Below, one piece after another: positions 946 through 48,421 of a stretch of 64,000 bases of DNA (position 1 is the first letter of the stretch; each line of letters begins with the position of its first letter). The stretch lies in contig NGFI01000008.1 in the NCBI GenBank assembly GCA_002215645.1, positions 248,001 to 312,000 of the forward strand, written 5' to 3'. Under the pieces are notes generated by a model. That model was not told where the DNA came from and did not search any database. It was given only the letters and a program-made list of their open reading frames with translations. The position numbers and the translations under genes were made by a program. The stretch is from Gemmatimonadetes bacterium 2013_60CM_65_52 (GTDB lineage: Bacteria > Gemmatimonadota > Gemmatimonadetes > Gemmatimonadales > Gemmatimonadaceae).

Positions 946-2253
946 GTGAACATCACCGTCGTCGGCTCCGGGTACGTGGGTCTCGTCGTGGGCGCGTGCC
1001 TCGCTGAAACGGGGAATGCCGTCCTCTGCGCCGATCTCGACGAGACCAAGATCGAGGGCCTCCGGAACAACGTCCTCCCCATCTACGAGCCCGGCCTCGA
1101 CGATTACGTCGAACGGAATCAGCGGCAGGGACGCCTCACGTTCTCGACGGACATTGGGCAGAGCATCGCATCGGCGGACGTCGTCTTCATCGCGGTCGGC
1201 ACGCCACCCGATGAGGATGGTTCGGCGGACCTGCGCCACGTGCTCGACGTCGCGGAGCAGATCGGCCGGCACATGCAGCGCGAGCTGGTGGTGGTGACGA
1301 AGTCCACGGTGCCCGTCGGCACCGCGGCGAGGGTGACGGAGGCCGTGGCGCGCAACGCGAAGTTTCCCTTCCACGTGTGCTCCAATCCGGAGTTTCTCAA
1401 GGAGGGCGCGGCGATCGACGACTTCATGAAGCCGGATCGCGTGGTGCTGGGCGTGGACAGCGACTTCGCGCGCAGCGTGATGGCGGAGCTGTACGCGCCG
1501 TTCGTCCGCACCGGGAAACCCATCCTCTTCATGGACGTGCCGTCGGCGGAAATGACGAAGTACGCAGCCAACGCGATGCTCGCCACACGCATCTCCTTCA
1601 TGAACGAGATCGCGAATCTGTGTGAGTCCGTCGGTGCCGACGTCGATCAGGTTCGGCGAGGGATCGGTTCGGACACGCGCATCGGCGCGGCGTTCCTGTT
1701 TCCGGGTCCGGGTTATGGCGGGTCGTGCTTCCCCAAGGACGTCAAAGCGCTCGTGCGCACGGCTAAGTCGAAGCATGTGGCGCTGCGAGTGCTCGACGCT
1801 GTGGAATCCGCGAACGAGGCCCAGAAAGAGCGGCTCTTCGAGAAGCTGGACCGAAGTCTTGGTGGTGTGAAGGGCAAGCGCATCGCGGTGTGGGGGCTGG
1901 CGTTCAAGCCGAATACCGATGACATGCGCGAGGCGCCTTCACTCGTGCTCATCGACCAGTTGCTCTCGGCGGGCGCAACGGTCGCGGCGCACGATCCGGT
2001 CGCCATGCACGAGGCGGAGCGACGAATCGGCGCAAGGATCACGTATGCGCCGTCGGGCTACGAGGCGCTCGAGGGCGCCGATGCGCTCGTCGTGGTGACG
2101 GACTGGAACGAGTACCGCCACCCGGACTTCGCCCGCATGAAATCGCTGCTGCGCGGAGCGGTGATCGTGGACGGCCGGAACCTGTATGACGCGCGCAAGA
2201 TGCGCGCGCTCGGCTTCACCTACGAGTCCATCGGACGAGGCGCACCGACATGA
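946..2253 (+). CDS. ugd: UDP-glucose 6-dehydrogenase
   Basis: Oxidises UDP-glucose to UDP-glucuronate with two NAD+. The 435-residue length is normal for the family. The N-terminal Rossmann motif [18 protein letters not shown] binds NAD. The catalytic cysteine lies in [12 protein letters not shown] (about residues 259-270). The C-terminal UDP-binding domain contains [18 protein letters not shown]. The start is GTG at 946, just after the aminotransferase stop; no earlier start fits the Rossmann fold. It overlaps the next gene by ATGA, so the two are probably translationally coupled. Its product feeds the downstream UDP-glucuronate decarboxylase. Confidence 0.95.
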
Positions 2254-3230
2254 GAGTGCTGATCACGGGCGCCGCCGGATTTCTGGGATCGCATCTGTGC
2301 GACCGGTTTCTCGCCGAAGGCCACTCGGTGGTGGGCCTCGACAACTTCGTCACGGGCCATCCGGACAACATCGCCCATCTGATGAGCGACGTCCGGTTCG
2401 AATTCATGCGGCACAACATCTCGACGTACACGTACGTGTCGGGAGCTCTCGACGGCGTGCTGCATTTCGCGTCGCCAGCCAGTCCGATCGACTATCTCGA
2501 GCTGCCCATCCAGACGTTGAAGGTGGGCTCGCTGGGCACCCACAACGCCCTGGGTCTCGCAAAGGCCAAGAACGCCCGCTTCTTTCTGGCCTCCACGTCC
2601 GAGGTGTACGGCGATCCGCTGGTGCATCCGCAAACCGAGGATTACTGGGGGAACGTAAACCCCGTGGGACCCCGCGGTGTCTATGACGAGGCCAAGCGGT
2701 TCTCGGAGGCCATCACGATGGCGTACCACACGTACCACGGCGTGGACACGCGCATCGTACGGATCTTCAATACGTACGGCCCGCGGATGCGGCCGCGTGA
2801 CGGGCGCGTGGTGTCGAACTTCATCGTGCAGGCGCTGACGAACGAGCCGCTCACCATCTACGGCGACGGGTCGCAGACACGCAGCTTCTGCTATGTGTCG
2901 GACGAGGTCGACGGGATCTACCGCCTCTTCATGCACGGCAATCACACACCGACCAACATCGGCAATCCCGACGAGTATACCGTACGCCAGCTCGCCGAGC
3001 TGGTCGTGGAGCTCACCGGGACGTCGGCGCCCATCGTGCACGAGCCGCTTCCGGTGGACGATCCCAAGGTGCGGAAGCCCGACATCTCCAAGGCGCGGGC
3101 GACGCTCGGCTGGCAGCCTACGGTGCACGTCCGGGACGGGCTGGCGCTCACCATCGAGTATTTTCGCCGGCTCATCGGTACGCCGCACATGGCGCCGAGG
3201 GTTGCGCGAGAGCGGCCAGCGGGCCTCTGA
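2250..3230 (+). CDS. uxs: UDP-glucuronate decarboxylase (UDP-xylose synthase type), extended SDR
   Basis: Predicted to convert UDP-glucuronate to UDP-xylose, consuming the product of the gene before it. A 326-residue extended short-chain dehydrogenase: NAD motif GAAGFLGSH at residues 7-15, STSEVYGD around 115-122, and the diagnostic UXS segment [21 protein letters not shown] with the catalytic Tyr-x3-Lys. A 4-bp overlap with ugd supports a shared transcript. A UDP-glucose 4-epimerase is less likely because of the YWGNVNP signature. No membrane segment is seen, so the enzyme is cytoplasmic. Confidence 0.92.
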
Positions 3231-3319
3231 CCGGTGAACCGTAGACCGTTCACGGGCGTTCCCGGTGTATCTTCCATGGCTCCTGAACCGACCGCCTTTT
3301 CGCGGGTACAGTTTCCGAT

Positions 3320-4159
3320 ATGCGCTTGATTCGCCGGGGGCCGCTCGCCGCCATGGTCTTCGTGACCGCGGCCTGCCATCCCGACTTTCAGATTACGAAG
3401 TTCCCCACGAACGAAGCCCTCTACCGCGCCGCCATGCAGGAAGCGGATGCGCAGCGGTGGGACAATGCCGTGGCGGCCTTCGAGAAGCTCACGACCGACT
3501 TGTCGGCCCGCGACACGCTGTTGCCGCGCGCCCACTGGTTCCTTGGCCGTGCGCACGAGGCCCGTGGCGAGCACGTGCTGGCGGCCACGAGCTTCTCACA
3601 TCTCGTCGAGAACTTCCCCGACGACACCCTCGCCGCACCCGCCGCGCTCGCGGCCGCGCGCGCCTATGGGAAGATGTGGCGCAAGCCGGCCCTCGATCCC
3701 ACATATGGCGAGACGGCGCTCGCGACGTACAATACGCTGCTGAGCCTCTATCCCCAGTCGCCGCTCGTCCCCGAAGCGAAGAAGGAGCTGGCGGAGCTGG
3801 AGGAAATGTTCGCGCAGAAGGCCTACCTGACCGGCCTGTACTATCTCCGGCGCGGGGCGTACGACAGCGGCATCATCTATTTCAAGGACGTCCTCGCCAA
3901 GTGGCCCGCGAGCCCGACGTCTCGCTCTGCACAATTGCGTCTGGTGGAGTCGTACAGGGCCATCCGGTATCGTGAAGACGCGCAGGATCAATGCGCGGCG
4001 CTTCGGAAGAACTATCCAGGTGATGCCGAGGTGCGCCTCGTATGTCAGGGCGTCGGTGAGCCGGCACAGTCGGCGCCCGCAGCCACCTCGAACGCTCCAC
4101 CGGCGTCGACGGGTCCGCCTCAGGCCGCGACCCCGCCGTCGACACCGCCCGCGGACTGA
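3320..4159 (+). CDS. bamD: BamD/YfiO-like outer-membrane lipoprotein with TPR repeats
   Basis: 279 residues. The N-terminus is a lipoprotein signal with a lipobox ending in TAAC (Cys near residue 20), so the product should be lipidated and held at the outer membrane. Several TPR-like helical pairs follow (for example EALYRAAMQEADAQRWDNAVAAFEKL and AYLTGLYYLRRGAYDSGIIYFKDVL), the arrangement seen in BamD, which partners BamA in beta-barrel insertion. The last 40 or so residues are Pro/Ala/Thr-rich and low in complexity, which is not typical of BamD. No other bam gene is nearby. A related TPR lipoprotein of other function is possible. Confidence 0.78.
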   Translation: MRLIRRGPLAAMVFVTAACHPDFQITKFPTNEALYRAAMQEADAQRWDNAVAAFEKLTTDLSARDTLLPRAHWFLGRAHEARGEHVLAATSFSHLVENFPDDTLAAPAALAAARAYGKMWRKPALDPTYGETALATYNTLLSLYPQSPLVPEAKKELAELEEMFAQKAYLTGLYYLRRGAYDSGIIYFKDVLAKWPASPTSRSAQLRLVESYRAIRYREDAQDQCAALRKNYPGDAEVRLVCQGVGEPAQSAPAATSNAPPASTGPPQAATPPSTPPAD

Positions 4160-4162
4160 GGC

Positions 4163-4732
4163 ATGCGCCTCGGGATCTTCGGGGGCAGTTTCGACCCGCC
4201 GCATCTCGGGCATCTGCTTCCGGTCATCGACGCGGTCGAGGCCCTGGCGCTCGATGGCGTGCGGTTCATGCCCGCCGGTGAGCAACCGCTGAAATCCGGC
4301 CGCGCGTACGCCAGCGCGGAGCATCGCTTCGCGATGACGCAGCGGCTGCTGCACGGGGTCCCAGGGTTCATCGCTGACCGGTCGGAAATCGACCGTCCGG
4401 GGTTATCTTACACGGTTGACACCGTGACGCAGTTGGCGGCCGCCCATCCCGGCGTGGAGCTCCTGCTCCTGCTCGGGACCGACGCGTTCGCGCTCTTCGA
4501 GCAGTGGAAGGAACCGGAACGGATACGCTCGCTGGCAACGGTGGTCGTCCTCGCGCGAGGCGACGAGCCGCTCGCGGCAGCGACCCGCACGCCGGCGCAG
4601 GTGCTGCAGACGCGGCGGGTGGACATCTCGTCCACCGAGCTGCGCGCCCGGGTGGCCGACGGGCGGACCATTCGCGGATTCGTTCCCGATGCGGTGGCGG
4701 ACTACATCGCCGCGCATCGGCTGTATCGATAA
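4163..4732 (+). CDS. nadD: Nicotinate-nucleotide adenylyltransferase
   Basis: Transfers AMP from ATP to nicotinate mononucleotide, giving deamido-NAD. A 189-residue nucleotidyl transferase: GGSFDPPHLGHLLP (residues 7-20) carries the (H/T)xGH motif and DISSTELRARVADGR (about 153-167) is the C-terminal ISSTxxR signature. It begins 3 bp after the bamD-like stop and ends 9 bp before secA, consistent with an operon. In many bacteria nadD neighbours rsfS or obgE; neither is visible here. Confidence 0.95.
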   Translation: MRLGIFGGSFDPPHLGHLLPVIDAVEALALDGVRFMPAGEQPLKSGRAYASAEHRFAMTQRLLHGVPGFIADRSEIDRPGLSYTVDTVTQLAAAHPGVELLLLLGTDAFALFEQWKEPERIRSLATVVVLARGDEPLAAATRTPAQVLQTRRVDISSTELRARVADGRTIRGFVPDAVADYIAAHRLYR

Positions 4733-4741
4733 GAGGACTGC

Positions 4742-7700
4742 ATGTTCAAGCGCGTACTGACGGCATTCATGGGCACCCGCCACGAGCGGGAGCGGAAGCG
4801 GCTCCAGCCGATTCTGGATTCCGTCCATGAGCACGAAGCAAGGCTCGCCAATGCGAGCGAAGAAACCCTGCGCAACCAGACGGCGAAATTTCGCGGTCTG
4901 CTGCACGAGCGGACGCATGATCTCGAGACTCGCATCGCCGAGTTGAAGGAGGCCAAGCGAACGGCCAGCGAGGCGAGCGAGCGCGAGCGGATCGACACCG
5001 AATTGGGTGGCGTGGACGGCAGCGGCGGCCTCGAGGCGGATCTGCGCCGCACCATCGCCGAAACCCTCGACGAGATTCTGCCCGAGGCCTTCGCGACGGT
5101 GCGCGAGGCCAGCCGACGGCTCATGGGCACGACGGTGACCGTCACGGGCCGCGAGCAGCAATGGAACATGGTGCCGTACGACGTGCAGCTCATGGGCGGC
5201 ATTCAGCTGCACTTTGGCAGGATCGCGGAAATGGGGACTGGCGAGGGCAAGACGCTCGTCGCCACGCTGCCACTCTACCTGAATGCATTGTCAGGGCGCG
5301 GCGCGCACCTCGTCACGGTGAACTCGTATCTGGCACGCCGCGATTCGCAGTGGATGGGGCATCTGTTCACGTACCTGGGACTCACCGTCGGCTGCATCGA
5401 CGACACCGAGGCCGGGTCGCCGGAGCGGCGCGCCGCGTATCTCTCGGACGTCACGTACGGCACCAACAACGAATTCGGCTTCGATTACCTGCGCGACAAC
5501 ATGGTCGTGTCGCTCGACCAGCGCGTCCAGCGTGTCCACGTCTATGCCATCGTGGACGAAGTGGACTCCGTGCTCATCGACGAAGCGCGCACCCCGCTCA
5601 TCATCTCCGGTCCCGTCGGCAACGACGGGGACATCCAGTACTTCGAGAACAACGCAGCCGTGTCGGGGCTGGTGCGCCGTCAGGTGGAGATGGTCAATCA
5701 GCTCGTCGCCGATGCGGAGCGTGACCTGGGCGCGGGGAATACGCAGGACGCCTCGGTCAAGCTCTACCAGGCGCAGATGGGCCACCCGAAGAACCGGCGG
5801 CTCCTCAAGCTCATGCAGGAGCAGGGTAACAAGCAGCTCGTGCTGAAGATGGAGCTCGAGCACCTCGCCGACCGGAAGCTGCCGCCGCACAAGCAGTCGT
5901 ACCGCGACATCGAGGAAAATCTGCTGTTCGTGCTCGATGAACGGGGGCATTCCGTCCATCTGACGGACCGCGGCGTCGACTTCATGTCGCCGAACGATCA
6001 CGACGCGTACGTGCTGCCCGATCTGAGCGAGGCGGTACACCGCATCGATCACGCGGCGGACCTGACGGGCGACCAGAAGATCGCGGCGCGCCGCGAGCTG
6101 GAGATCGACTACGCGTCCAAGAGCGAGCGTCTCAACATCGTGCACCAGCTTCTCAGGGCGCACGCGCTCTACGAGAAGGACGTCAACTACGTCGTGCAGG
6201 ACGGCGAGGTGCTGATCGTCGACGAATACACCGGCCGCACCATGCCGGGTCGTCGCTGGAGCGAGGGACTGCACCAGGCGGTCGAGGCCAAGGAAGGGGT
6301 TCGCGTAAAGGGCGAGACGCAGACCATGGCCACGATCACCATCCAGAACTACTTCCGCATGTACGAGAAGCTGGCCGGCATGACCGGCACGGCCGAAACG
6401 GAAGAGACGGAGTTCTACGAGATCTACAAGCTGGAAGTCGCGGTCATCCCGACGAATCGTCCCGTCATCCGCGACGACCGCCACGATCTCGTCTTCAAGA
6501 CGCGGCGCGAGAAGTACAACGCCATCGTCGACGAGACGCGCCGCCTGCACGAGCTCGGATATCCGGTGCTGATCGGCACCACCAGCGTGGATGCGTCGGA
6601 AACGCTGTCCAAGCTCATGCAGCGCGCGGGGCTCGTGCACAACGTGCTCAACGCCAAGTATCACCAGCGTGAGGCGGAGATCGTCGCCAACGCCGGGCAG
6701 CCGGGCGCGATCACCATCGCCACCAACATGGCCGGCCGCGGCACCGACATCAAACTCGGCGAAGGGGTCACGCCGTCGAAGCCGTCGAAGGTGAAGGATC
6801 CCGACGGAAAGGAGATCGACGTCGACGAGATCGGTGGCCTCCACATCGTCGGCTCCGAGCGCCACGAGTCACGTCGCATCGACCGCCAGCTCCGCGGCCG
6901 GTCGGGACGTCAGGGTGATCCGGGAGCGAGCCAGTTCTTTCTGTCGCTCGAGGACGACCTCATGCGGCTCTTCGGCAGCGATCGCATCGCGAAGCTGATG
7001 GACCGCATGGGCGCGCAGGAGGGCGAGGTGCTCACGCATCCGCTCATCACGCGGTCCATCGAGCAGGCACAGAAGCGCGTCGAGCTCCAGAACTTCCAGA
7101 GCCGCAAGCGGCTGCTGGAGTACGACGACGTCATGAACCAGCAGCGCGAGGTGATCTATTCGCTGCGTTCATTCGCGCTCGAGGGCGGCGAGGAGCTGAA
7201 GGGCGAGGCGCTCAAGATGGTGGAGAAGGCCGTCGCCCGGCGCGTGGAGACCGTGCTCGCGGAGTTCGAGGACTACTCGGAGTGGGACTTCGAGCTGCTC
7301 CGTCAGGAGCTGCTGCTGCACTACATGCTCCAGGTGAAGGAGTTCGACGACGAGCAGCTCAGACCCACCGTGCTGCCGGACGCCCAGCAGCACACGGTGG
7401 AGGCAGGCCGCACGGCGTTCGCTGGCAAGCTCGAAGCGCTGGACATGGTGCGCGACCAGGAGGGCGGCTATGCCGACCGCCTGCTGCGCTACGTGATGCT
7501 CAACGTGCTGGACGAGAAGTGGAAGGATCACCTTTACGATCTCGACCAGCTCCGCAACGCGATTCATTATCGCTCGTGGGGGCAGAAGGACCCGCTTCTC
7601 GAGTACAAGCAGGAGGCCTACACGATGTTCGTCGATCTGATGAACGACATCGCGGAGACCTTCACGGACCGGTTCCTCAAGGTGCAGCTCGTCATCGAGG

Positions 7701-13470: not shown

Positions 13471-13548
13471 AATGAACAACAGAGGACACAGAGAGCACAG
13501 AGACAACACGTAGTGCCTCTGTGTCCTCTGTGCTCTCTGTGGTTCATT
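13471..13548. repeat. Intergenic hairpin with 9-nt-phased ACAGAG units (copy A)
   Basis: Arms 13471-13504 and 13515-13548 pair at 28 of 34 positions around a 10-nt loop. Each arm holds three ACAGAG (or CTCTGT) units spaced exactly 9 nt apart (starts at 13479, 13488, 13497). It lies between the convergent relA and DUF4159 genes, where a transcription barrier would suit both. A related element lies at 18770-18845. Confidence 0.75.
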
Positions 13549-18235: not shown

Positions 18236-18736
18236 ATGAGCCGGAGCCTGAATAAGGTCACCTTGATCGGCAATCTCGGAAACGATCCCGAAGTGCGGTC
18301 CACCACCGGGGGCAACCGGGTGGCCACGTTCTCCCTCGCCACGAGCCGGTCGTGGAACGACGCGAGCGGAACGAAACAGGAGAAGACCGAGTGGCACCGC
18401 TGCGTGGTCTGGAACACCAAGAACTCGCAATTGGCCGACATCGTGGAGCGGTACGTCAAGAAGGGCGACAAGCTGTACGTGGAGGGCCGGATCGAATACC
18501 GGCAGTGGACGGACAAGGACAACCAGACGCGCTACTCCACGGAGATCAACGTGCGGGAGCTCATCATGCTGGGCGGCGGCTCGGGTGCTCGGGGCGGAGC
18601 GGAGCATGACGGTGAGAGCGCTGGTGCGCGGTCGAAGGCGGCGGCTCCTGCAAAGGCCAAGGCTGGCGCGGGGACCGAGGACTTCGAGGACTTCCCCGGG
18701 GCGCTGGCGGACGAGGACGACGACCTGCCGTTCTGA
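18236..18736 (+). CDS. ssb: Single-stranded DNA-binding protein
   Basis: Coats single-stranded DNA in replication and repair and recruits partner enzymes through its tail. 166 residues: N-terminal OB fold (SLNKVTLIGNLGNDPEVR, then KLYVEGRIEYRQWTDKDNQ), a Gly/Ala/Lys-rich linker from about 113 to 145, and the acidic C-terminal tip DEDDDLPF used for protein contacts. A strong AGGAGG precedes the ATG. The 115-bp gap upstream should hold its promoter. It is followed by the repeat at 18770. Confidence 0.97.
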   Translation: MSRSLNKVTLIGNLGNDPEVRSTTGGNRVATFSLATSRSWNDASGTKQEKTEWHRCVVWNTKNSQLADIVERYVKKGDKLYVEGRIEYRQWTDKDNQTRYSTEINVRELIMLGGGSGARGGAEHDGESAGARSKAAAPAKAKAGAGTEDFEDFPGALADEDDDLPF

Positions 18737-18943
18737 CGTAGTCGAGCAATAGAGAAGACAGATGCTATTAAACCACAGAGAACACAGAGTGCACAGAGCG
18801 TGACTTTTCCTGGTTCCTCTGTGGGCTCTGTGATCTCTGTGGTTTGCAAGCTGTTCGAGAAGCCGATTTCTATCGACCGCCGGCATGGCGACGTAACGGG
18901 GTCGCTCGTGTAAGGTTTACGGCGCGTCCGGCATCCAGTGGAC
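18737..18943. other. 207-bp gap between ssb and the sigma-factor gene
   Basis: Contains the phased hairpin repeat (18770-18845) and about 98 bp of leader for the sigma-factor operon. I see no ORF or RNA gene and no clear -35/-10 pair. Confidence 0.6.
18770..18845. repeat. Intergenic hairpin with 9-nt-phased ACAGAG units (copy B)
   Basis: Arms 18770-18799 and 18816-18845 pair at 26 of 30 positions around a 16-nt loop. Each arm has three ACAGAG/CTCTGT units at 9-nt spacing, the same design as copy A at 13471-13548. It lies 33 bp after the ssb stop, between two genes reading the same way. Confidence 0.75.
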
Positions 18944-19522
18944 ATGCCAGTGCCACGCGGCGCATCGGCGCAACCGGACGCCCTCATCGACTCCGAGTCC
19001 TCCGCCACCCTTCGAAGCCGTATCGAGCGCGTCCAGGACGGCGATCGCGCTGCCCTGGGCGAGCTGTACGCGGAGTTCGGCGTGCAGGTCTATCGCACTG
19101 CACTCCGACTCACTCGTCACGCGGCCGATGCCGAGGACGTCACCCAGGACGTCTTTCTCAAGCTGCCCGCGGCAGTCGCGGGCTTCACGGGCGGATCGGC
19201 CAGCTTTCCGGCCTGGATTCGCAAGGTGACCGTGCGTCACGCGCTCATGCATCTGCGCGCCGGAAAGCGCCGCCGAGAGGTGAGCGTGGACGGCGTGATG
19301 GGGCTGATGTCCCGCGCCGACTCCGTTGCAAACCGCCTGACGCTCGATGCGGCGCTGACGCGCCTGCGCGCGCAGTATCGCGCCGTGTTTCTGCTCAAGG
19401 AAGTGGAAGGCTACGACCACGCCGAAATCGCCGAGCTGCTCGACATCTCCGTCGCCAGCTCGCAGGTCACACTCCATCGCGCGCGTCGAATGCTGCGCGA
19501 GCTGCTCGTGGGGTCACAATGA
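18944..19522 (+). CDS. ECF-type RNA polymerase sigma factor
   Basis: About 192 residues. Region 2 is recognisable from LGELYAEFGVQVYRTALRLT to DAEDVTQDVFLKL; region 4 is the helix-turn-helix DHAEIAELLDISVASSQVTLHRARRML. There is no region 3, as in extracytoplasmic-function sigma factors. ATG 18944 is used; GTG 18938, two codons earlier, is equally possible. The stop overlaps the start of the anti-sigma gene by ATGA, the classic arrangement for a co-made sigma/anti-sigma pair, so the sigma factor is probably held inactive at the membrane until an envelope signal arrives. Confidence 0.93.
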   Translation: MPVPRGASAQPDALIDSESSATLRSRIERVQDGDRAALGELYAEFGVQVYRTALRLTRHAADAEDVTQDVFLKLPAAVAGFTGGSASFPAWIRKVTVRHALMHLRAGKRRREVSVDGVMGLMSRADSVANRLTLDAALTRLRAQYRAVFLLKEVEGYDHAEIAELLDISVASSQVTLHRARRMLRELLVGSQ

Positions 19523-21348
19523 TGAACGCTCTGCTCGATCGACTGCATCCGTCCTTCGAGGCGCTCTCCGCGCAGTCCGACCTGAGTGACGTGGGTCGAG
19601 CGTCCTCCCGAATGGCTCGACATGTCGCGCGGTGCGAACAGTGCGCCGCGGTGATCGCCGAGATTCGTGCGCTCGGCGACGCGGCACGCGCGGAAGTTCT
19701 CGACGCACCGCGACCGGATCTGTGGTCGCGCATCGAGGCCGCCGCCACGGACGGGACGCGGTTGCCACCACAGCCGCTCTCCGCCCGGACGCGCCGCGTG
19801 CAGTTCAGCATCTCTCGGAGCGGCGTGCTCCTCGCGGCCGCGGCCGCGCTCCTCGTGCTGCTGGCCTGGCCCGGCGATCGCGGGCTCCAGGCCTCGGGGA
19901 CGAGCCGGCTGACGTTCTCGCCTGGGCGCCCAGTCCCGGGCGGCGTGTTGGTCGTGAGATACCGCGCGGTCTCCTGGTTGAAGACGCAGCCGCGGCTCGT
20001 CCTCGTCGGTCGTTCCTTGACCACCCCGCAAGAGATGCGGTGGTCGCAGCGACTCGGCGATTCCATTGCGTCACTCGTGCCGCGTGCCGATGGGATGTTC
20101 GAGGCGCGCTTGCACCTGTCGGAATCGTTCGCAGGTATGAGCGTGTGGGTCAGCGACAGTGTCGGCAAGGAGGTCGATACCGACTGGTTGATTCTCTCGG
20201 GAACACGAGATGGAAAGCCCTCTTTGGCGTCGATGCTGGCCGCCCTATGGGTCACGTCATACGGGTATGAGCCGGAGGAGGTGAGGCGTCCCCGACAGGC
20301 GATCAACGTCTCCGATTCCCTGCGTCGCTACTTTCCCGATTACCCGGCCGGCTGGATCAATTCGCGGAGCGACAGGTCGGCATCGGCGATCGAGCGGCTG
20401 ATCGCATATTTTCAGACGGGCGAGCGGCGGTATCTACGCTTTTACGAGGAGCTGTGGCCGCGCAAGAACCTCGACGCCGAGCGCACGCACGAGATGGTGA
20501 TGTTCGCGAATGCCATTTCGGAGCCCGACGAGGTGAATCGCTGGGCGCGACGTCTGGTGCTGGAGCACCCGGAAGATCCGCGCGCGCTCGACGACCTCGC
20601 CATGGCGCTCCATCTGGTTGAGCTGAAGGAGCCGCCGGGACTGGCGGATTCGATGCGCGCGTGGTTGCCGGTGCTCGAGCGTCTGTACGAGCGCGGGTCG
20701 CACCAGGTATCCGACGGTTACGCAGTGTGGCAGCTGGCGATTCGCTATGGAGATTCCGCAACGGCGGCGCGCTGGAGAGACCGCGCGCTCGGTACAGGAT
20801 TGCGGTATTGGGACACCACCTACGCAACCAATCGGTCGCTGCGCCTCGCGGCGGAGCGGAATTGGCGGGATGCGCTGCGAACGTCCTGCGTGCTGCCCGC
20901 CGGCAAGTTCCCCATGTCGACGATGTTCGGGAGCTGGTGGTCGATCTGTGAGCGCAACAGGACGTTCGGCTTCACCTTTCTTGCGCGCGCTCGGCTACTG
21001 GATGGCGATCCACATTCCGCGCGGGCCTTTGCGGACTCGGCGCTCATGCCACGCAGTGGAACTCCGGCGTGCGGACGTTGGTACTCCACGTATCTCGCGG
21101 CGGCGCGAACAGACCTGGCGCTTGGTGACACGCAGACAGCGTTCGGCCATCTGGTGACCGTGGCCAGCTTCTGGCCCGATCGCAGCGTCATTCGTGATTC
21201 TGCCCGAGTCTTTCTCGGACCAAGGTTCCACCAGACTGAATTCGACTTGGCCGCGGATTCGGCCAGACGCATCTACGTCGTCTGCGCGGAGCGCGAGCGG
21301 GCTGCCGCGAAGGCGAGGGAGGACCGATTGCGGAACGAGCTCCGCTGA
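19519..21348 (+). CDS. Transmembrane anti-sigma factor with a large extracytoplasmic domain
   Basis: 609 residues from the double ATG at 19519. The N-terminus has an H-x3-C-x2-C zinc motif (H35, C39, C42), typical of ZAS anti-sigma factors. A single membrane segment (about 102-118) follows. The remaining ~490 residues should face the periplasm. They start with a beta-rich stretch (VPGGVLVVRYRAVSW, LVLVGRSL) and continue as helical, TPR-like repeats rich in Trp, Arg and Ala (ERLIAYFQTGERRYLRFYEEL, RARLLDGDPHSARAFADSAL). Most anti-sigma sensor domains are far smaller. The zinc motif and sigma coupling give the regulatory role; the ligand or load sensed by the outside domain is unknown. Confidence 0.8.
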   Translation: MMNALLDRLHPSFEALSAQSDLSDVGRASSRMARHVARCEQCAAVIAEIRALGDAARAEVLDAPRPDLWSRIEAAATDGTRLPPQPLSARTRRVQFSISRSGVLLAAAAALLVLLAWPGDRGLQASGTSRLTFSPGRPVPGGVLVVRYRAVSWLKTQPRLVLVGRSLTTPQEMRWSQRLGDSIASLVPRADGMFEARLHLSESFAGMSVWVSDSVGKEVDTDWLILSGTRDGKPSLASMLAALWVTSYGYEPEEVRRPRQAINVSDSLRRYFPDYPAGWINSRSDRSASAIERLIAYFQTGERRYLRFYEELWPRKNLDAERTHEMVMFANAISEPDEVNRWARRLVLEHPEDPRALDDLAMALHLVELKEPPGLADSMRAWLPVLERLYERGSHQVSDGYAVWQLAIRYGDSATAARWRDRALGTGLRYWDTTYATNRSLRLAAERNWRDALRTSCVLPAGKFPMSTMFGSWWSICERNRTFGFTFLARARLLDGDPHSARAFADSALMPRSGTPACGRWYSTYLAAARTDLALGDTQTAFGHLVTVASFWPDRSVIRDSARVFLGPRFHQTEFDLAADSARRIYVVCAERERAAAKAREDRLRNELR

Positions 21349-21521
21349 GCACGCTGTAACGCCCGTCACCGGTGGCATAACGGGCGGAGAGCCATCATGT
21401 TGCGGGGGTCGCCGGTTTCTCATCCGGCGGCCAATCGTCATTCCGACGACTCCCCGCCGCTGCCGGCCGGGACGCAGGTCGATTCCAAATGCGCCGATGC
21501 TCGGCGCCGAGCCCCCAGCGC

Positions 21522-22604
21522 GTGAAGATCTCCCGATTCGGCTGGTCGCTGTCCGCTGTCTCGCTGCTGGCCGTTGCCGCCGCGGCACCGGTGCTTGCCC
21601 AGGAGCAGCGCACGAACGCCCCGGCGACCCATACCGTCAAGCGCGGCGATACCCTCTGGGACATCGCGAAGCAGTACCTCGGCGATCCCTACCTCTGGCC
21701 CGGCATCTACCGGCTCAATACGGATCAGATCGAGGATCCGCACTGGATCTATCCCGGCGAGATCATTCGCCTTCCCGGTCAGTCCGCGGCGGCGCCGGCG
21801 GTCGTGGCCGAGGAGCCGCGGCCCGCCTCGACGAACACGGTATTCTCGCAGGTGCAGAGGAGCCAGGCGCGGCCCGTGAGCCAGCGGCAGTTCGCACCGC
21901 CGCGCGTTCCGCCCGGTGACGTGGTACGCGCCGCCTACGTCGGACCCGACAAGGGTCCGCGCGGCGCGGGGAAGATCCTCTTCGGCGCCGACATTCCGGG
22001 CATCGACAAGGAGCGCTCGATGACCAACTATCAGCTCTACGACAAGGTGCTGCTCATCCCGCCCGTCGGCAGCATTGCCGCGGAGCGCGAGCGCTTCGTG
22101 GCGTACGAGCTGGGTGAGTCGGTCGAAGGGATGGGCACCGTCGTCATTCCCACGGCGGTGCTTCAGGTCATTCGCGCGCCACGAAATGGCGAGGCTGCCA
22201 CCGTCCAGGTGGTGGAGCTGTTCGGCATGTTGAACGCCGACACCAAGGTCCTCCCCATCGACACCGCGGGCGCCGGCGCTTCGGGCGTGCCGTTGTCGTT
22301 CAGCGGCGTACGGACGACCACGGTTCGGGCCATCCACCGGCCGGCGGTTCTCCCGTCCACGAGCTACGAAGTGCTCTTCGATCTCAGCAGCAAGGACGGC
22401 ATGAAGATCGGTGACGAGGTGGAGATTTTCCATTCCCGGCAGAAGGACATTCCCGACGAGCGGCCTGCCATTCCGGAGGTCGCGATTGCAACTGCACGCG
22501 TGGTCCGTGTGACGCAATACGGCAGCACGGCGCGGGTGACGTCTCAGATCGAGCCCGCCATTCGCGTGGGCGAGAGCATTCGAGTGACCGCGCGGATGCC
22601 CTGA
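21522..22604 (+). CDS. LysM-domain exported protein
   Basis: About 360 residues. The signal peptide ends in APVLAQ. It is followed at once by a LysM domain (HTVKRGDTLWDIAKQYLGDP ... WIYPGEIIRLP), which binds peptidoglycan. The rest is of unknown fold, with Ala/Pro linkers and beta-rich segments (TTTVRAIHRPAVLPSTSYEVLFDL, KIGDEVEIFHSRQ). I prefer GTG 21522 because it gives a compact signal peptide; ATG 21489 in the same frame is the alternative, and neither has a clear ribosome-binding site. Likely periplasmic. The 173-bp gap upstream holds two small hairpins (CGCCGG/CCGGCG near 21410-21435 and TCGTC/GACGA just after). Confidence 0.85.
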   Translation: MKISRFGWSLSAVSLLAVAAAAPVLAQEQRTNAPATHTVKRGDTLWDIAKQYLGDPYLWPGIYRLNTDQIEDPHWIYPGEIIRLPGQSAAAPAVVAEEPRPASTNTVFSQVQRSQARPVSQRQFAPPRVPPGDVVRAAYVGPDKGPRGAGKILFGADIPGIDKERSMTNYQLYDKVLLIPPVGSIAAERERFVAYELGESVEGMGTVVIPTAVLQVIRAPRNGEAATVQVVELFGMLNADTKVLPIDTAGAGASGVPLSFSGVRTTTVRAIHRPAVLPSTSYEVLFDLSSKDGMKIGDEVEIFHSRQKDIPDERPAIPEVAIATARVVRVTQYGSTARVTSQIEPAIRVGESIRVTARMP

Positions 22605-40260: not shown

Positions 40261-42894
40261 GTGCCGACTCCGCCCCCGCTGATGCCTGATGTCGCCAAGC
40301 TGAAGAAAAAGGCCGCCGAGTTCGAGCTGAAGAAGCAGTTCGACAAGGCGTTGGCGGTGTATGTCGAGATTCTCGAAAGCTTCGACCCTGGCGATGAGGA
40401 AGTGGATGTCTCCCTCTACAACCGCGTCGGCGATCTCTACCTGAAGCAGGGCAGCGTCGGCGACGCCGTCGACTACTACGAGCAGGCCGTCGACCGGTAC
40501 GCCGAGGGCGGGTTCCACAACAACGCCATCGCGCTCTGCAACAAGATTCTGCGCAACTCGCCTGGTCGCGCGAGTGTGTATTACAAGCTCGGGCGTATCA
40601 GCGCGCAGAAGGGCTTCAAGGGCGACGCCAAGAAAAACTATCTCGAGTACGCCGATCGCATGCAGTCGGCGGGGAAGATCGACGAGGCGTTTCGCGCGCT
40701 GAAGGAATTCGCGGATCTCTGTCCCGATCAGGATGACATCCGCCTGATGCTCGCCGATCAGCTCTCGAAGAAGGGCCGCTCCGAAGAAGCGATCGAGCAG
40801 CTCCAGCAGCTCTACGAGCGGTACACCGAGCAGGGACGCGATACCGAGGCACGCGCCGCCGCCGAGCGGATGAAGTCCATCGACCCGACGTCCGAGCCGC
40901 GTGTCCCAAGCGGAACCTCGCGTCGGTCCGCCGACGATCTGGTCTTCCTCGATCTCAGCGACACCGGTACGCGAAAGCGCCAGTCCGCGGCAGCAAAGCG
41001 CGCCACGCTCGGCCTCGACGTGATTGCGTCCGGTGCGGCGGACACGCCGCTCGCGTCACCGACCATTCCGCCGCCATCGCCCGCGCGGGCTGTGGCCGCA
41101 GCCCCGGCGCCGACGGAGCAGGTGCTCGGCACGCCCCTGCTCGAGCCGCCCGTGCTCGACGGCGTCTCGCGGGTCGCCGAGTTCGAGAAGTCGCCCGAAG
41201 CGAGCAGCGGCGGTTTGCTCGAGGGACTCGAGACCACGTCGTTCGGCGCCGCGGCAGCGCCGTCGGAGTCGTTGCTCGATCTCGAGTCCACAAGCCTCGC
41301 GGCACCCGCACCCGCATATATGCCGCCGGCTCCGAAGCGACTGACGCCGCAGGAGCACGATTTGCTCGACTTCAACATGCCGGGCGCTACGCCGCCGACG
41401 GGCCGCGAGGCAGTCGAGGAGTTGCCTCCTCTCGAGCCGATTGATCTCGATCTCCCCGACGACTTTCCCCCATCGCGACCCAACCGTCCGTCATTGGTCG
41501 GCCTCCCGATGTTGGTGGACGAAGACGGTCAGGAGCCGGCTACGGAGGCGGAGTTGGCCGCCGAACCGGACGTCATCGGCGGGGATCTCGAGCTCATCAT
41601 GCCGGACGGAACGCCGGCGCGCGGAACGCCCGTGCAGGAATCGCACGTCGACGATCTGCCGCTGATGGATCTCGAGCTGCCCATCGAAGGCGCGGCTCCT
41701 GGTCGGATGTCCAAGGAGGTCGGCCGAAACAGCGCCGAGTTCGAGCTCACCACGCTGGAAGAGGAGGTCGAGGCGCAGACCGAGGCGCCGGATCGATATA
41801 CGCCGCCCCCCGCGCCGCGGCAGTCCACAGTGCTCGCCGAGCAGTCGGTGGAATTACTCGCGGCGTTGTCGGAGGCCGACCCGGACGACAATGCGCTGCG
41901 CCGCCGTCTCGCCGAGGCGATGCTCGAGTCAGGCGACCGCGAGGGTGGCCTTCGCGAGTTGGAGACCGCGATGCTCGGCTTCGAGCGCGCGGACGATCTC
42001 GCGAAGGCATCCAAGCTCGCCGAGGAGATCGTGCTCCTCAATCCGGACTCGGTGCGGCATCACCAGAAGCGAGTCGAGTACGCGTTTCGCACCAACGAGC
42101 GCGGACGCCTCATCGAGGCGTATCTCCAACTCGCCGAGGCGTTGTTCCGCGCGGGACAGGTCGAGAAGTCGCGGGCCATCTATCAGCGCGTCATGGATCT
42201 GGCGCCGGACGATCTCCGCGCGGCAGCTGCGCTGGAGAGTTTCCCGGCTCCGGAGCCACCGCCCGAAGCGCCGCCGCCACCGCGGGCGCGCGCCACCGTC
42301 GCGCAGCCGCGCGCCAGCGTGGCCGTACCGCCTGCGCCGGTTGCTCCTGTGCCCGACACCACAGACGGCTACATCAACCTCGGTGACTGGCTTCGAGACG
42401 ACGAGGCGCCGAAAGACACGCGCATGGTCGTCGAGGAGAAGGAGCCAACCGGAGACGAGGAAGCCGACTTCCAGGACATGCTCCGGAAGTTCAAGGAAGG
42501 CATCGCCGAGAACGTCGAAGACGAGGACCACCAGAGCCACTACGACCTCGGCGTCGCGTACAAGGAGATGGGACTGCTGGACGAAGCCATTGCCGAGTTC
42601 CAGAAGGCGCTGCGTGCACCGAGCAATCGCGTGCCCACCTACGAGGCGCTCGGCCAGTGCTTCATGGAGAAGGAGCAGTATCCAATGGCGTCAACCGTGC
42701 TCGGTCGGGCATTGCATGAGCCGAACATGAGCGACGACAATCTCGTCGGCGTGCTCTACCTGCTCGGCCGGTGCGCCGAGGAGCGGGGGCAGCGTGACAA
42801 GGCGTTGGAGTATTATCAACGCGTGTTCGTCGTCGACATACAGTTCCGAGACGTGGCTGATCGCCTCGCCGCCGTCGAAGGCGCGGCATCGTGA
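40261..42894 (+). CDS. Large TPR protein with a long acidic/Pro-rich middle region
   Basis: 877 residues, GTG 40261 (ATG 40282 also possible). Residues ~10-215 are TPR-type helical repeats (AEFELKKQFDKALAVYVEIL, YNRVGDLYLKQGSVGDAVDYYEQA). A low-complexity middle follows (~215-530), rich in Pro, Ala, Glu and Asp with LPPLEPIDLDLPDDFPPS-type acidic runs. A second TPR set closes the protein (LRKFKEGIAENVEDEDHQSH, YDLGVAYKEMGLLDEAIAEF, ALEYYQRVFVVDIQFRDVAD). No signal peptide or membrane helix, so it is probably a cytoplasmic scaffold. Its partners are unknown. A second protein of the same style is at 46457. Confidence 0.85.
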   Translation: MPTPPPLMPDVAKLKKKAAEFELKKQFDKALAVYVEILESFDPGDEEVDVSLYNRVGDLYLKQGSVGDAVDYYEQAVDRYAEGGFHNNAIALCNKILRNSPGRASVYYKLGRISAQKGFKGDAKKNYLEYADRMQSAGKIDEAFRALKEFADLCPDQDDIRLMLADQLSKKGRSEEAIEQLQQLYERYTEQGRDTEARAAAERMKSIDPTSEPRVPSGTSRRSADDLVFLDLSDTGTRKRQSAAAKRATLGLDVIASGAADTPLASPTIPPPSPARAVAAAPAPTEQVLGTPLLEPPVLDGVSRVAEFEKSPEASSGGLLEGLETTSFGAAAAPSESLLDLESTSLAAPAPAYMPPAPKRLTPQEHDLLDFNMPGATPPTGREAVEELPPLEPIDLDLPDDFPPSRPNRPSLVGLPMLVDEDGQEPATEAELAAEPDVIGGDLELIMPDGTPARGTPVQESHVDDLPLMDLELPIEGAAPGRMSKEVGRNSAEFELTTLEEEVEAQTEAPDRYTPPPAPRQSTVLAEQSVELLAALSEADPDDNALRRRLAEAMLESGDREGGLRELETAMLGFERADDLAKASKLAEEIVLLNPDSVRHHQKRVEYAFRTNERGRLIEAYLQLAEALFRAGQVEKSRAIYQRVMDLAPDDLRAAAALESFPAPEPPPEAPPPPRARATVAQPRASVAVPPAPVAPVPDTTDGYINLGDWLRDDEAPKDTRMVVEEKEPTGDEEADFQDMLRKFKEGIAENVEDEDHQSHYDLGVAYKEMGLLDEAIAEFQKALRAPSNRVPTYEALGQCFMEKEQYPMASTVLGRALHEPNMSDDNLVGVLYLLGRCAEERGQRDKALEYYQRVFVVDIQFRDVADRLAAVEGAAS

Positions 42895-46412: not shown

Positions 46413-46456
46413 GATCCGCTCTCCGAAAACCCCTGCGCGCCGCCGCCGAGGCTTTG

Positions 46457-48421
46457 ATGGCCAGTACCGCCCGAATCGACGAGTTGAAGAAGAAATTCGA
46501 CGAGAATCCACGGCGATACTTCGCACCGCTGGCCAACGAGTTCCGCAAGGCGGGTGACATCGAGCAGGCCATCGTCATCTGCGAGGAGTTCCTCCCTCAG
46601 CAGCCGGGCCACATGAGTGGCCACATCGTGTACGGGCAGGCGCTCTTCGAGGCCGGGCGGCTTCCCGAGGCGCGAGCAGTGTTCGAGACGGCCCTCGGGC
46701 TCGATCCCGAGAACCTCATCGCCCTGCGACATCTCGGCGACATCGCGCATGGACAGGGCGACGACGTGGCCGCACGGTCCTGGTACCTGCGCGTCCTCGA
46801 CGCGGACCCCCGCAACGAGGAAATCCAGGCGCTGATCGCGTCCCTCGGGACGGAGCCGGAAACTGTGGCGCAGGCCGGCGCGTCGGCAGCGGCGGAGACC
46901 TCCGCAGCGGTTGAGCCACCAATGGAGCTCGCGGGCATTCTCGACGAGATCGAGGTTGCACCGGTGCCTGCTGTGACGCCTCCGCCGATACCGGTTGACT
47001 TGGAGTTTGCACCGCCCGCGCCCGTGGCGCAGCCTCCGATTCCCGGCGAGCCGCTGGACATCCTCTCGCACGAGTTTGCCCTTCCGTCCGAACACGAAGC
47101 GCCACACGAGACGGAGGCCGCCGAGGGCTTCGAGGCCACCACGTTCGAGGCGCCGGCAGAGCCGGTGCACAGCCTGTCCGAGCTCGATGCGTCGCTGGAG
47201 TCCGGCGTGCCGGAGTTCCGGGCGCCCGAGCACGTTCCCACCCTCGAGGGATTGGAGGACAGCGGAGGCCTCGCACACGAGGAGTCGCAAAGCGCTCGCG
47301 CGACCGCGGCTGCTCCGGTAATCGACGATCTGCCGCCGCTCGAGCTTGATGAGGCGGACACCACGCCGCCTCGGGGCGACGCGCTGGAGTTCGACATTCC
47401 GGCCGCCGAAGCGCCGCCGATCGAGTTGCCTCCGCCGGTGATTGCCGCGGAAGCGGAGCTCATCGACGAGATTGTTCCGGCCGAAGAGGCCGCGCCGGTT
47501 TCGCCATCGGCACCCTTCGTGACGGAGACGATGGCGGAGCTCTACCTGTCGCAGGAATTCCGGGACGAGGCGCGTTCAGTCTACGAGCAGTTGCTGGCGG
47601 CGCATCCGGACGACGAACGGCTTCAGGGACTCGTTGTGTCGCTCGCGCCGGAGTATGCCCCGCCCGCCGACACCGGTCCGCTCCTGCGCGATTTCCTATG
47701 GAGAATCGCTGCTCGGCGCCCCGGCCAGTCAGCCGCCATGGAGGCTGAGCCGGCGTCCACGGATTTCGCCGACGCAGGATTCGCAGAACCCGAGGCGGTG
47801 TCCTACGCGGAGCCGGAAGTTGCGGCGGCCGAAGAACCGCACGAGCTGCTCGACGGATTCGCGCTCGCGACGCCGGCCACCGGAGCGCCTGTCGTGGACA
47901 TCGCCGCATTCGCTCCGCCCGTGATGGAGGAGCTCGCGATCGAAGCGCCGCCTCCACCCGTTCCGACGCCTGCTCGCGGTCAGGACGTGGCGCCGGCGCT
48001 GGAGCGCGCCGCGCGGATGCGCACGCCCGAGGGTTCCATCGACGCACTCTTCGGCACGCGTCCTACATCTACGTCCGAGGATTCCGCTGCCGCGGCGCTC
48101 GCACAGGCGTTCGGCAGCTCGGGTGAGGGGGAGAACATCCTCACCGGACGTCCCGCGCACGCGGCCACTGGTGAGCTTTCCCTAGACAGCGTTTTCCGCG
48201 ATGGCCCGCGAGCGCAACGCGCCTCGCAGAGCTTCTCCTTCGATCAGTTCTTCGCGGGAAGTGCGACGCCTGGCGGTGGCCAGGGCGGCAGTCCGCGCGT
48301 GAGTGGTGGAACCGCTCGAGCGTCGGGCGAGACGACGCTTCCCGAGGCGCCCACGGGCGAAAGGGGGGCCGAGGACATCGAGCAGTTCAACTCCTGGCTC
48401 CAGGGATTGAAGCCTCGGTGA
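46457..48421 (+). CDS. TPR protein with long acidic/Ala-Pro-rich region
   Basis: 654 residues from ATG 46457 (TTG 46454 is the codon before). The first ~125 residues are TPR repeats (RIDELKKKFDENPRRYFAPL, NEFRKAGDIEQAIVICEEFL, AARSWYLRVLDADPRNEEI). The rest is mostly low-complexity Ala/Pro/Glu/Val sequence, broken by a short folded segment near residue 355-405 (TETMAELYLSQEFRDEARSVYEQLL). No signal peptide. It resembles the 877-residue TPR protein at 40261 in design. Its stop overlaps aroQ by GTGA. Confidence 0.83.
   Translation: MASTARIDELKKKFDENPRRYFAPLANEFRKAGDIEQAIVICEEFLPQQPGHMSGHIVYGQALFEAGRLPEARAVFETALGLDPENLIALRHLGDIAHGQGDDVAARSWYLRVLDADPRNEEIQALIASLGTEPETVAQAGASAAAETSAAVEPPMELAGILDEIEVAPVPAVTPPPIPVDLEFAPPAPVAQPPIPGEPLDILSHEFALPSEHEAPHETEAAEGFEATTFEAPAEPVHSLSELDASLESGVPEFRAPEHVPTLEGLEDSGGLAHEESQSARATAAAPVIDDLPPLELDEADTTPPRGDALEFDIPAAEAPPIELPPPVIAAEAELIDEIVPAEEAAPVSPSAPFVTETMAELYLSQEFRDEARSVYEQLLAAHPDDERLQGLVVSLAPEYAPPADTGPLLRDFLWRIAARRPGQSAAMEAEPASTDFADAGFAEPEAVSYAEPEVAAAEEPHELLDGFALATPATGAPVVDIAAFAPPVMEELAIEAPPPPVPTPARGQDVAPALERAARMRTPEGSIDALFGTRPTSTSEDSAAAALAQAFGSSGEGENILTGRPAHAATGELSLDSVFRDGPRAQRASQSFSFDQFFAGSATPGGGQGGSPRVSGGTARASGETTLPEAPTGERGAEDIEQFNSWLQGLKPR

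Follow-up and report, generated by a model that had tools for sequence, protein, structure and literature searches.

The sigma/anti-sigma locus and its promoter

The window analysed here is a 64,000-nucleotide stretch of Gemmatimonadaceae DNA. Directly downstream of ssb (18236-18736) it carries, on the + strand, an ECF sigma factor gene (18944..19522) followed by the gene of a transmembrane class I (ZAS) anti-sigma factor of 608-609 aa (19519..21348), after which comes a LysM gene (21489-22604). The likely start of the sigma gene is ATG 18944 and its stop is TGA 19520-19522. The sigma frame is also open from an alternative upstream start, GTG 18938, counted from which the protein has 194 aa. 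The sigma factor matched Pfam Sigma70_r2 (E=1e-13, residues 43-111) and Sigma70_r4_2 (E=4.6e-16, residues 135-186) and scored above the TIGR02937 cut-off. As is diagnostic of ECF factors, it has regions 2 and 4 only, without regions 1.1 and 3. The anti-sigma gene starts at ATG 19519 or 19522 (ATGATG), with a 4-bp ATGA overlap at 19519-19522 with the sigma stop, and the same order was found in congeners. The pairing of an ECF sigma factor with an anti-sigma protein, proposed in the initial annotation, is thus borne out by the sigma matches, the overlap and the conserved gene order.

The order ssb-sigma-anti-sigma-LysM was common to the window and congeners. The anti-sigma gene was at the same site in five of nine congeners, and mis-assembly was discounted for that reason. 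Four of the five copies were single open frames, 39-50% identical to the window protein over its length, one of these ending at a contig end; the copy in congener G002 was split in two by contig ends. The window genome has one copy of the gene. In G001 the pair was absent and LysM came directly after ssb, and in G004 (L138, about 1550-4050) an HtrA/DegP-like serine protease gene and a second ORF filled the ssb-LysM slot, so the pair is best regarded as optional cargo at this site. A search of genome contigs with the single protein gave no match, and a profile search of genome contigs gave only five Gemmatimonadota loci and one weak archaeal match. Homologous loci with named records came from Gemmatimonadaceae or Gemmatimonadetes MAGs. 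Between ssb and the sigma promoter lies a near-perfect long hairpin (18769-18846; -50.9 kcal/mol, z -9.2). Its half-site, AAACCACAGAGNNCACAGAG, was counted 40 times in the genome with up to one mismatch allowed (control 0) and often forms inverted pairs; another half-site lies in the window at 13526-13545. The hairpin can be classed as a dispersed palindromic repeat, and the congeners read do not have it at this spot.

An autoregulatory ECF promoter is predicted at 18910..18935 (+ strand), consisting of a -35-like GTAAG (18910-18914), 15 nt, and a -10-like GGCATC (18930-18935). It ends 8 nt ahead of the sigma ATG, and a near-leaderless mRNA is predicted. In congeners, TGTAAGCwTTy-N10-GGCATC precedes the sigma gene, its end 7-8 nt from the ATG. 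Among 47 upstream regions of sigma genes linked to the outside-module family described below, which are related to each other, GTAAS-N15-GGCATY was found in 15; the two halves at other spacings from 8 to 24 were found in none, and shuffles expect 0.005. Even among related regions, such constancy of spacing between diverged members speaks for a genuine promoter. Within the genus, matches without any mismatch were confined to this sigma gene, which makes self-activation likely and a large regulon unlikely. The genome has three exact matches, the sigma promoter, one antisense inside an ABC transporter gene and one inside a coding region, and these are no more numerous than in the reversed control. 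None of the one-mismatch sites in the genus search stood before an obvious start codon. Given the control-level exact matches and the position of the one-mismatch sites, we claim no wider regulon. The sigma promoter itself is conserved, but the genus search yielded no convincing second site. Autoregulation with a small regulon is the likely function of the predicted promoter.

A ZAS anti-sigma factor with a large outside part

The ZAS zinc motif is encoded at 19546..19644 (+ strand) and consists of H9 (19546-19548), H34 (19621-19623), C38 (19633-19635) and C41 (19642-19644). Residues 34-41 read HVARCEQC, an H-x3-C-x2-C motif with the conserved H9 upstream. In the alignment all four residues were invariant in every congener covering that part, and also in L021, as expected for the zinc anti-sigma factor first annotated. 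The NCBIfam anti-sigma model NF052375 matched the window protein with E=1.6e-7, under its curated cut-off, a weak match but a specific one, and Pfam zf-HC2 was not reached. Relatives matched anti-sigma profiles as well. AlphaFold2 placed helices in the inner part at residues 12-19, 23-27/30-37, 39-59 and 67-76, with pLDDT only about 40-70. The N-terminus scores as anti-sigma, but the predicted ZAS fold has low confidence. A single membrane helix (about residues 99-117; 19816..19872, + strand) is predicted from a hydropathy peak of 2.35 and an AlphaFold2 helix at 100-115, in agreement with the one helix noted initially. An Arg-rich stretch precedes the helix and indicates an N-in orientation, leaving about 490 residues predicted to be outside. 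The unusual size of this outside part was upheld by the single frames in congeners. Taken together, the sequence confirms that the window gene encodes a ZAS-type transmembrane anti-sigma factor with predicted zinc and sigma binding.

The protein shares H-x24-H-x3-C-x2-C at its N-terminus with ChrR/RsrA-type ZAS proteins, and as with these its gene overlaps and directly follows the ECF sigma gene. The spacing of H9 and H34-x3-C38-x2-C41 is like that of ChrR. ChrR and RsrA are soluble proteins, whereas the window protein adds a membrane helix and the large extracytoplasmic part. In having one membrane helix, the anti-sigma domain inside and a sensor outside, it resembles the RseA/RsiW-type anti-sigma factors that are released by site-1 and S2P proteolysis. 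The outside parts of the RseA/RsiW type, however, are far smaller than about 490 residues.

The outside part is, as modelled, an Ig-like domain followed by a TPR-like superhelix. The AlphaFold2 model of the whole protein, built from six sequences and of modest quality (pLDDT 66.6, pTM 0.52), has beta strands at 130-225 and then helices to 607, which agrees with the beta-rich stretch and TPR-type helices that had been proposed. The predicted Ig-like beta-sandwich (residues 128-232; 19903..20217, + strand) had pLDDT 73 when this part was modelled alone. Its structural neighbours were mostly Ig-like folds, none outstanding (best Z 8.3), and Foldseek with this part gave no match below E 0.001. The predicted TPR-like helical repeat domain (residues 233-605; 20218..21336, + strand) is based on AlphaFold2, Foldseek and the family profile. 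The best Foldseek match of the helical part was a consensus-TPR superhelix (E=5.5e-4), and the outside-part family profile matched TPR proteins in the PDB at 1.4e-6. Pfam found no domain reaching cut-off in the outside part of the window protein, where TPR_14 was sub-threshold only (0.026 and 0.0048); TPR_14 matched 8 of 15 family members at E up to 0.1. A phmmer search of the PDB with the window protein gave no match. Since TPR and Ig folds are common, they say little about the ligand. Two more large TPR proteins are encoded in the window, at 40261-42894 (877 aa) and 46454-48421 (655 aa), neither with a further named domain.

A phylum-wide family and its thioredoxin domain

A profile of the outside part gave matches in 45 of 295 genomes from the class. 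With a broader profile there were matches in 147 of 395 genomes from the phylum, but plain TPR accounts for many of the weak ones. The locus was examined for 77 distinct family proteins, of which 48 were encoded directly downstream of an ECF sigma gene; two more carry the ZAS motif at a contig edge, giving 50 sigma/ZAS-linked members. HxxxCxxC precedes the membrane helix in 42 of the 50, so that the same domain, sought behind other ZAS motifs as had been proposed, was indeed found there. Eight sigma-linked members have the membrane helix and outside module without HxxxCxxC (L029, L032, L035, L096, L103, L105, L114 and L119), and these possibly have zinc-free anti-sigma domains. For the other 27 of the 77 no sigma gene was seen, a count that may include orphan or contig-cut anti-sigma genes (L006 is certainly contig-cut); most of the 27 have a signal-peptide-like N-terminal stretch.

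In these family proteins Pfam recognised an N-terminal zf-HC2 and a C-terminal AhpC-TSA/Redoxin domain, and NCBIfam likened the C-terminal part to ResA, StoA, TlpA and DsbE. Most of the 50 sigma/ZAS-linked members end in a ResA/TlpA-type thioredoxin domain, in which an intact CxxC is almost never kept. Among 43 sigma-side members, both cysteines of the CxxC position were retained in one, the first only in 21, and neither (or no residue) in 21; an intact CxxC is thus missing from 42 of the 43 relatives, in contrast to the ResA/TlpA/StoA-type thiol-disulfide oxidoreductases (AhpC-TSA fold). Most sigma-side domains with a remaining Cys are CxxS or CxxA, so that mixed disulfides are possible at most. 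Non-sigma members had both cysteines in 10 of 21 cases, against 1 of 43 (Fisher p 2e-5, a value that ignores kinship among members). The members with intact CGPC, which lack sigma genes, formed one well-supported clade in the tree, and a single event may therefore explain the contrast. On these comparisons the outside part of the window protein is one branch of a Gemmatimonadota family whose module usually continues into a degenerate thioredoxin domain.

The window protein ends where its relatives' thioredoxin domain starts, and only some 140 bp separate its gene from the next one. The protein gave no Pfam redoxin match, it has no thioredoxin fold with CxxC, and the domain is absent across the window's genus. 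Four cysteines are found in the outside part (20887..21285, + strand): C456 (20887-20889), C476 (20947-20949), C517 (21070-21072) and C588 (21283-21285). They are conserved in the genus, and most other family members have no Cys in that region. In a tree built from the outside part, the clade with the window protein had a support of 100 but sat on a long branch with no firm attachment point, so that any order of domain gain and loss is tentative. The simpler reading is that the thioredoxin domain was lost in the window's branch.

A candidate sensor mechanism and its alternatives

We consider it probable that the locus is an autoregulated ECF sigma/ZAS anti-sigma switch in which the Ig-like and TPR outside module serves as a binding, non-catalytic sensor. 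The sigma factor, ZAS motif, topology and promoter are read from the sequence, and we infer the ligand, proteolysis and output, as well as the binding rather than catalytic character of the module. At rest, the ZAS domain would keep the sigma factor bound. The TPR groove would bind or release an extracytoplasmic partner, perhaps an envelope component, a peptide, or a protein that is unfolded or carries thiols, and this would change or expose the outside part. Most likely, a site-1 protease and then an S2P protease would cut the anti-sigma factor; alternatively, the change might be passed through the membrane. The freed sigma factor would then transcribe the operon that encodes it and few genes besides, if any. 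An M50/S2P protease is encoded in the genome, as in all 14 control genomes, and such a nearly universal gene lends the mechanism weak support.

The nature of the signal allows other accounts. The state of disulfides between the genus-specific cysteines might determine how the outside part is shaped or how readily proteases cut it, so that the protein would be an envelope redox sensor in which they replace the lost thioredoxin domain as thiol sensor. The conservation of the four cysteines in the genus favors this account, as do their near absence from the other family members, which have a thioredoxin-like domain instead, and the prevalence of CxxS and CxxA where a sigma-side Cys remains. Conserved extracytoplasmic cysteines, however, are most often structural disulfides, and the many sigma-linked relatives without any Cys at the thioredoxin active site argue that thiol chemistry is dispensable for family function. 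We give redox sensing a low probability; the outside module may still transmit a thiol signal via the four cysteines. The initial annotation suggested a sensor of protein or wall load. On this account the outside part would bind peptidoglycan or misfolded exported protein and couple the LysM gene to the state of the envelope. TPR superhelices do often bind peptides, a LysM gene comes next downstream, and the family profile gave a weak match to LpoP, a TPR lipoprotein that activates a peptidoglycan synthase (E=1.3e-4). The LpoP match ranked under designed TPR proteins and OGT, and is therefore a generic TPR match. The LysM adjacency is positional, LysM being present without the pair in G001 and with other genes between in G004, and the domain searches found no peptidoglycan-binding domain. 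With no result favoring protein or wall load in particular, this account is unlikely.

The possibility that an anti-sigma factor and an unrelated gene were joined by chance fusion, frameshift or assembly artefact has nothing beyond the odd size of the protein in its favor, and is scarcely credible. The reading frame is single and open, several congeners from separate assemblies have the same architecture, and the same module stands behind a ZAS-TM segment across the phylum. Within the genus, none of the homologues has a gene of its own for the C-terminal part, and in practice the fusion or mis-assembly reading was refuted by the congeners.

Returning to the binding sensor, its suggested novelty is tempered by the phylum-wide distribution of that module, usually with a degenerate thioredoxin end, and by a precedent from Myxococcus. 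TPR-bearing transmembrane anti-sigma factors are already known from DdvA (PDB 8rw5, 8rot), which likewise has a membrane anchor and a large part with TPR-like repeats. Model residues 426-580 superposed on DdvA 442-585 with Z 10.1 and rmsd 4.3 over 133 residues. The window protein differs in that an Ig-like domain comes first. DdvA was absent from the sequence matches of the window protein and family profile, the likeness being at fold level only, and generic TPR proteins score equally; DdvA is therefore a precedent of kind and no evidence of common descent. About 79% of Gemmatimonadota ECFs are paired with class I anti-sigma domains (PMC7406223), and our literature search found no study of any Gemmatimonadota ECF pair. 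The open-access papers searched, which are part of the whole literature, nowhere describe an anti-sigma factor joined to a thioredoxin-like domain and offered nothing fitting on anti-sigma factors with TPR.

A more speculative history, to which we give little weight, starts from a secreted Ig-TPR-thioredoxin enzyme that Gemmatimonadota would have recruited to be the sensing part of their membrane anti-sigma factors. Its thioredoxin domain would have decayed to a non-catalytic pseudo-thioredoxin before being dropped in the window's genus, where four new cysteines would have become the thiol sensor. If true, it would present an enzyme-turned-receptor series with several stages visible. The family offers the testable claim that an enzyme domain became part of a receptor, together with natural variants whose thioredoxin domain is intact, degenerate or absent. 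It also supplies a defined sensor module and a predicted fixed-spacing promoter usable as a reporter. A further arrangement was seen in L124 (G221, 1789-5397), where a sigma gene with the same GTAAS-N15-GGCATY promoter accompanies a ZAS-TM-Ig protein that has no thioredoxin domain and a different C-terminal part, and that adjoins a second protein with the Ig-TPR module.
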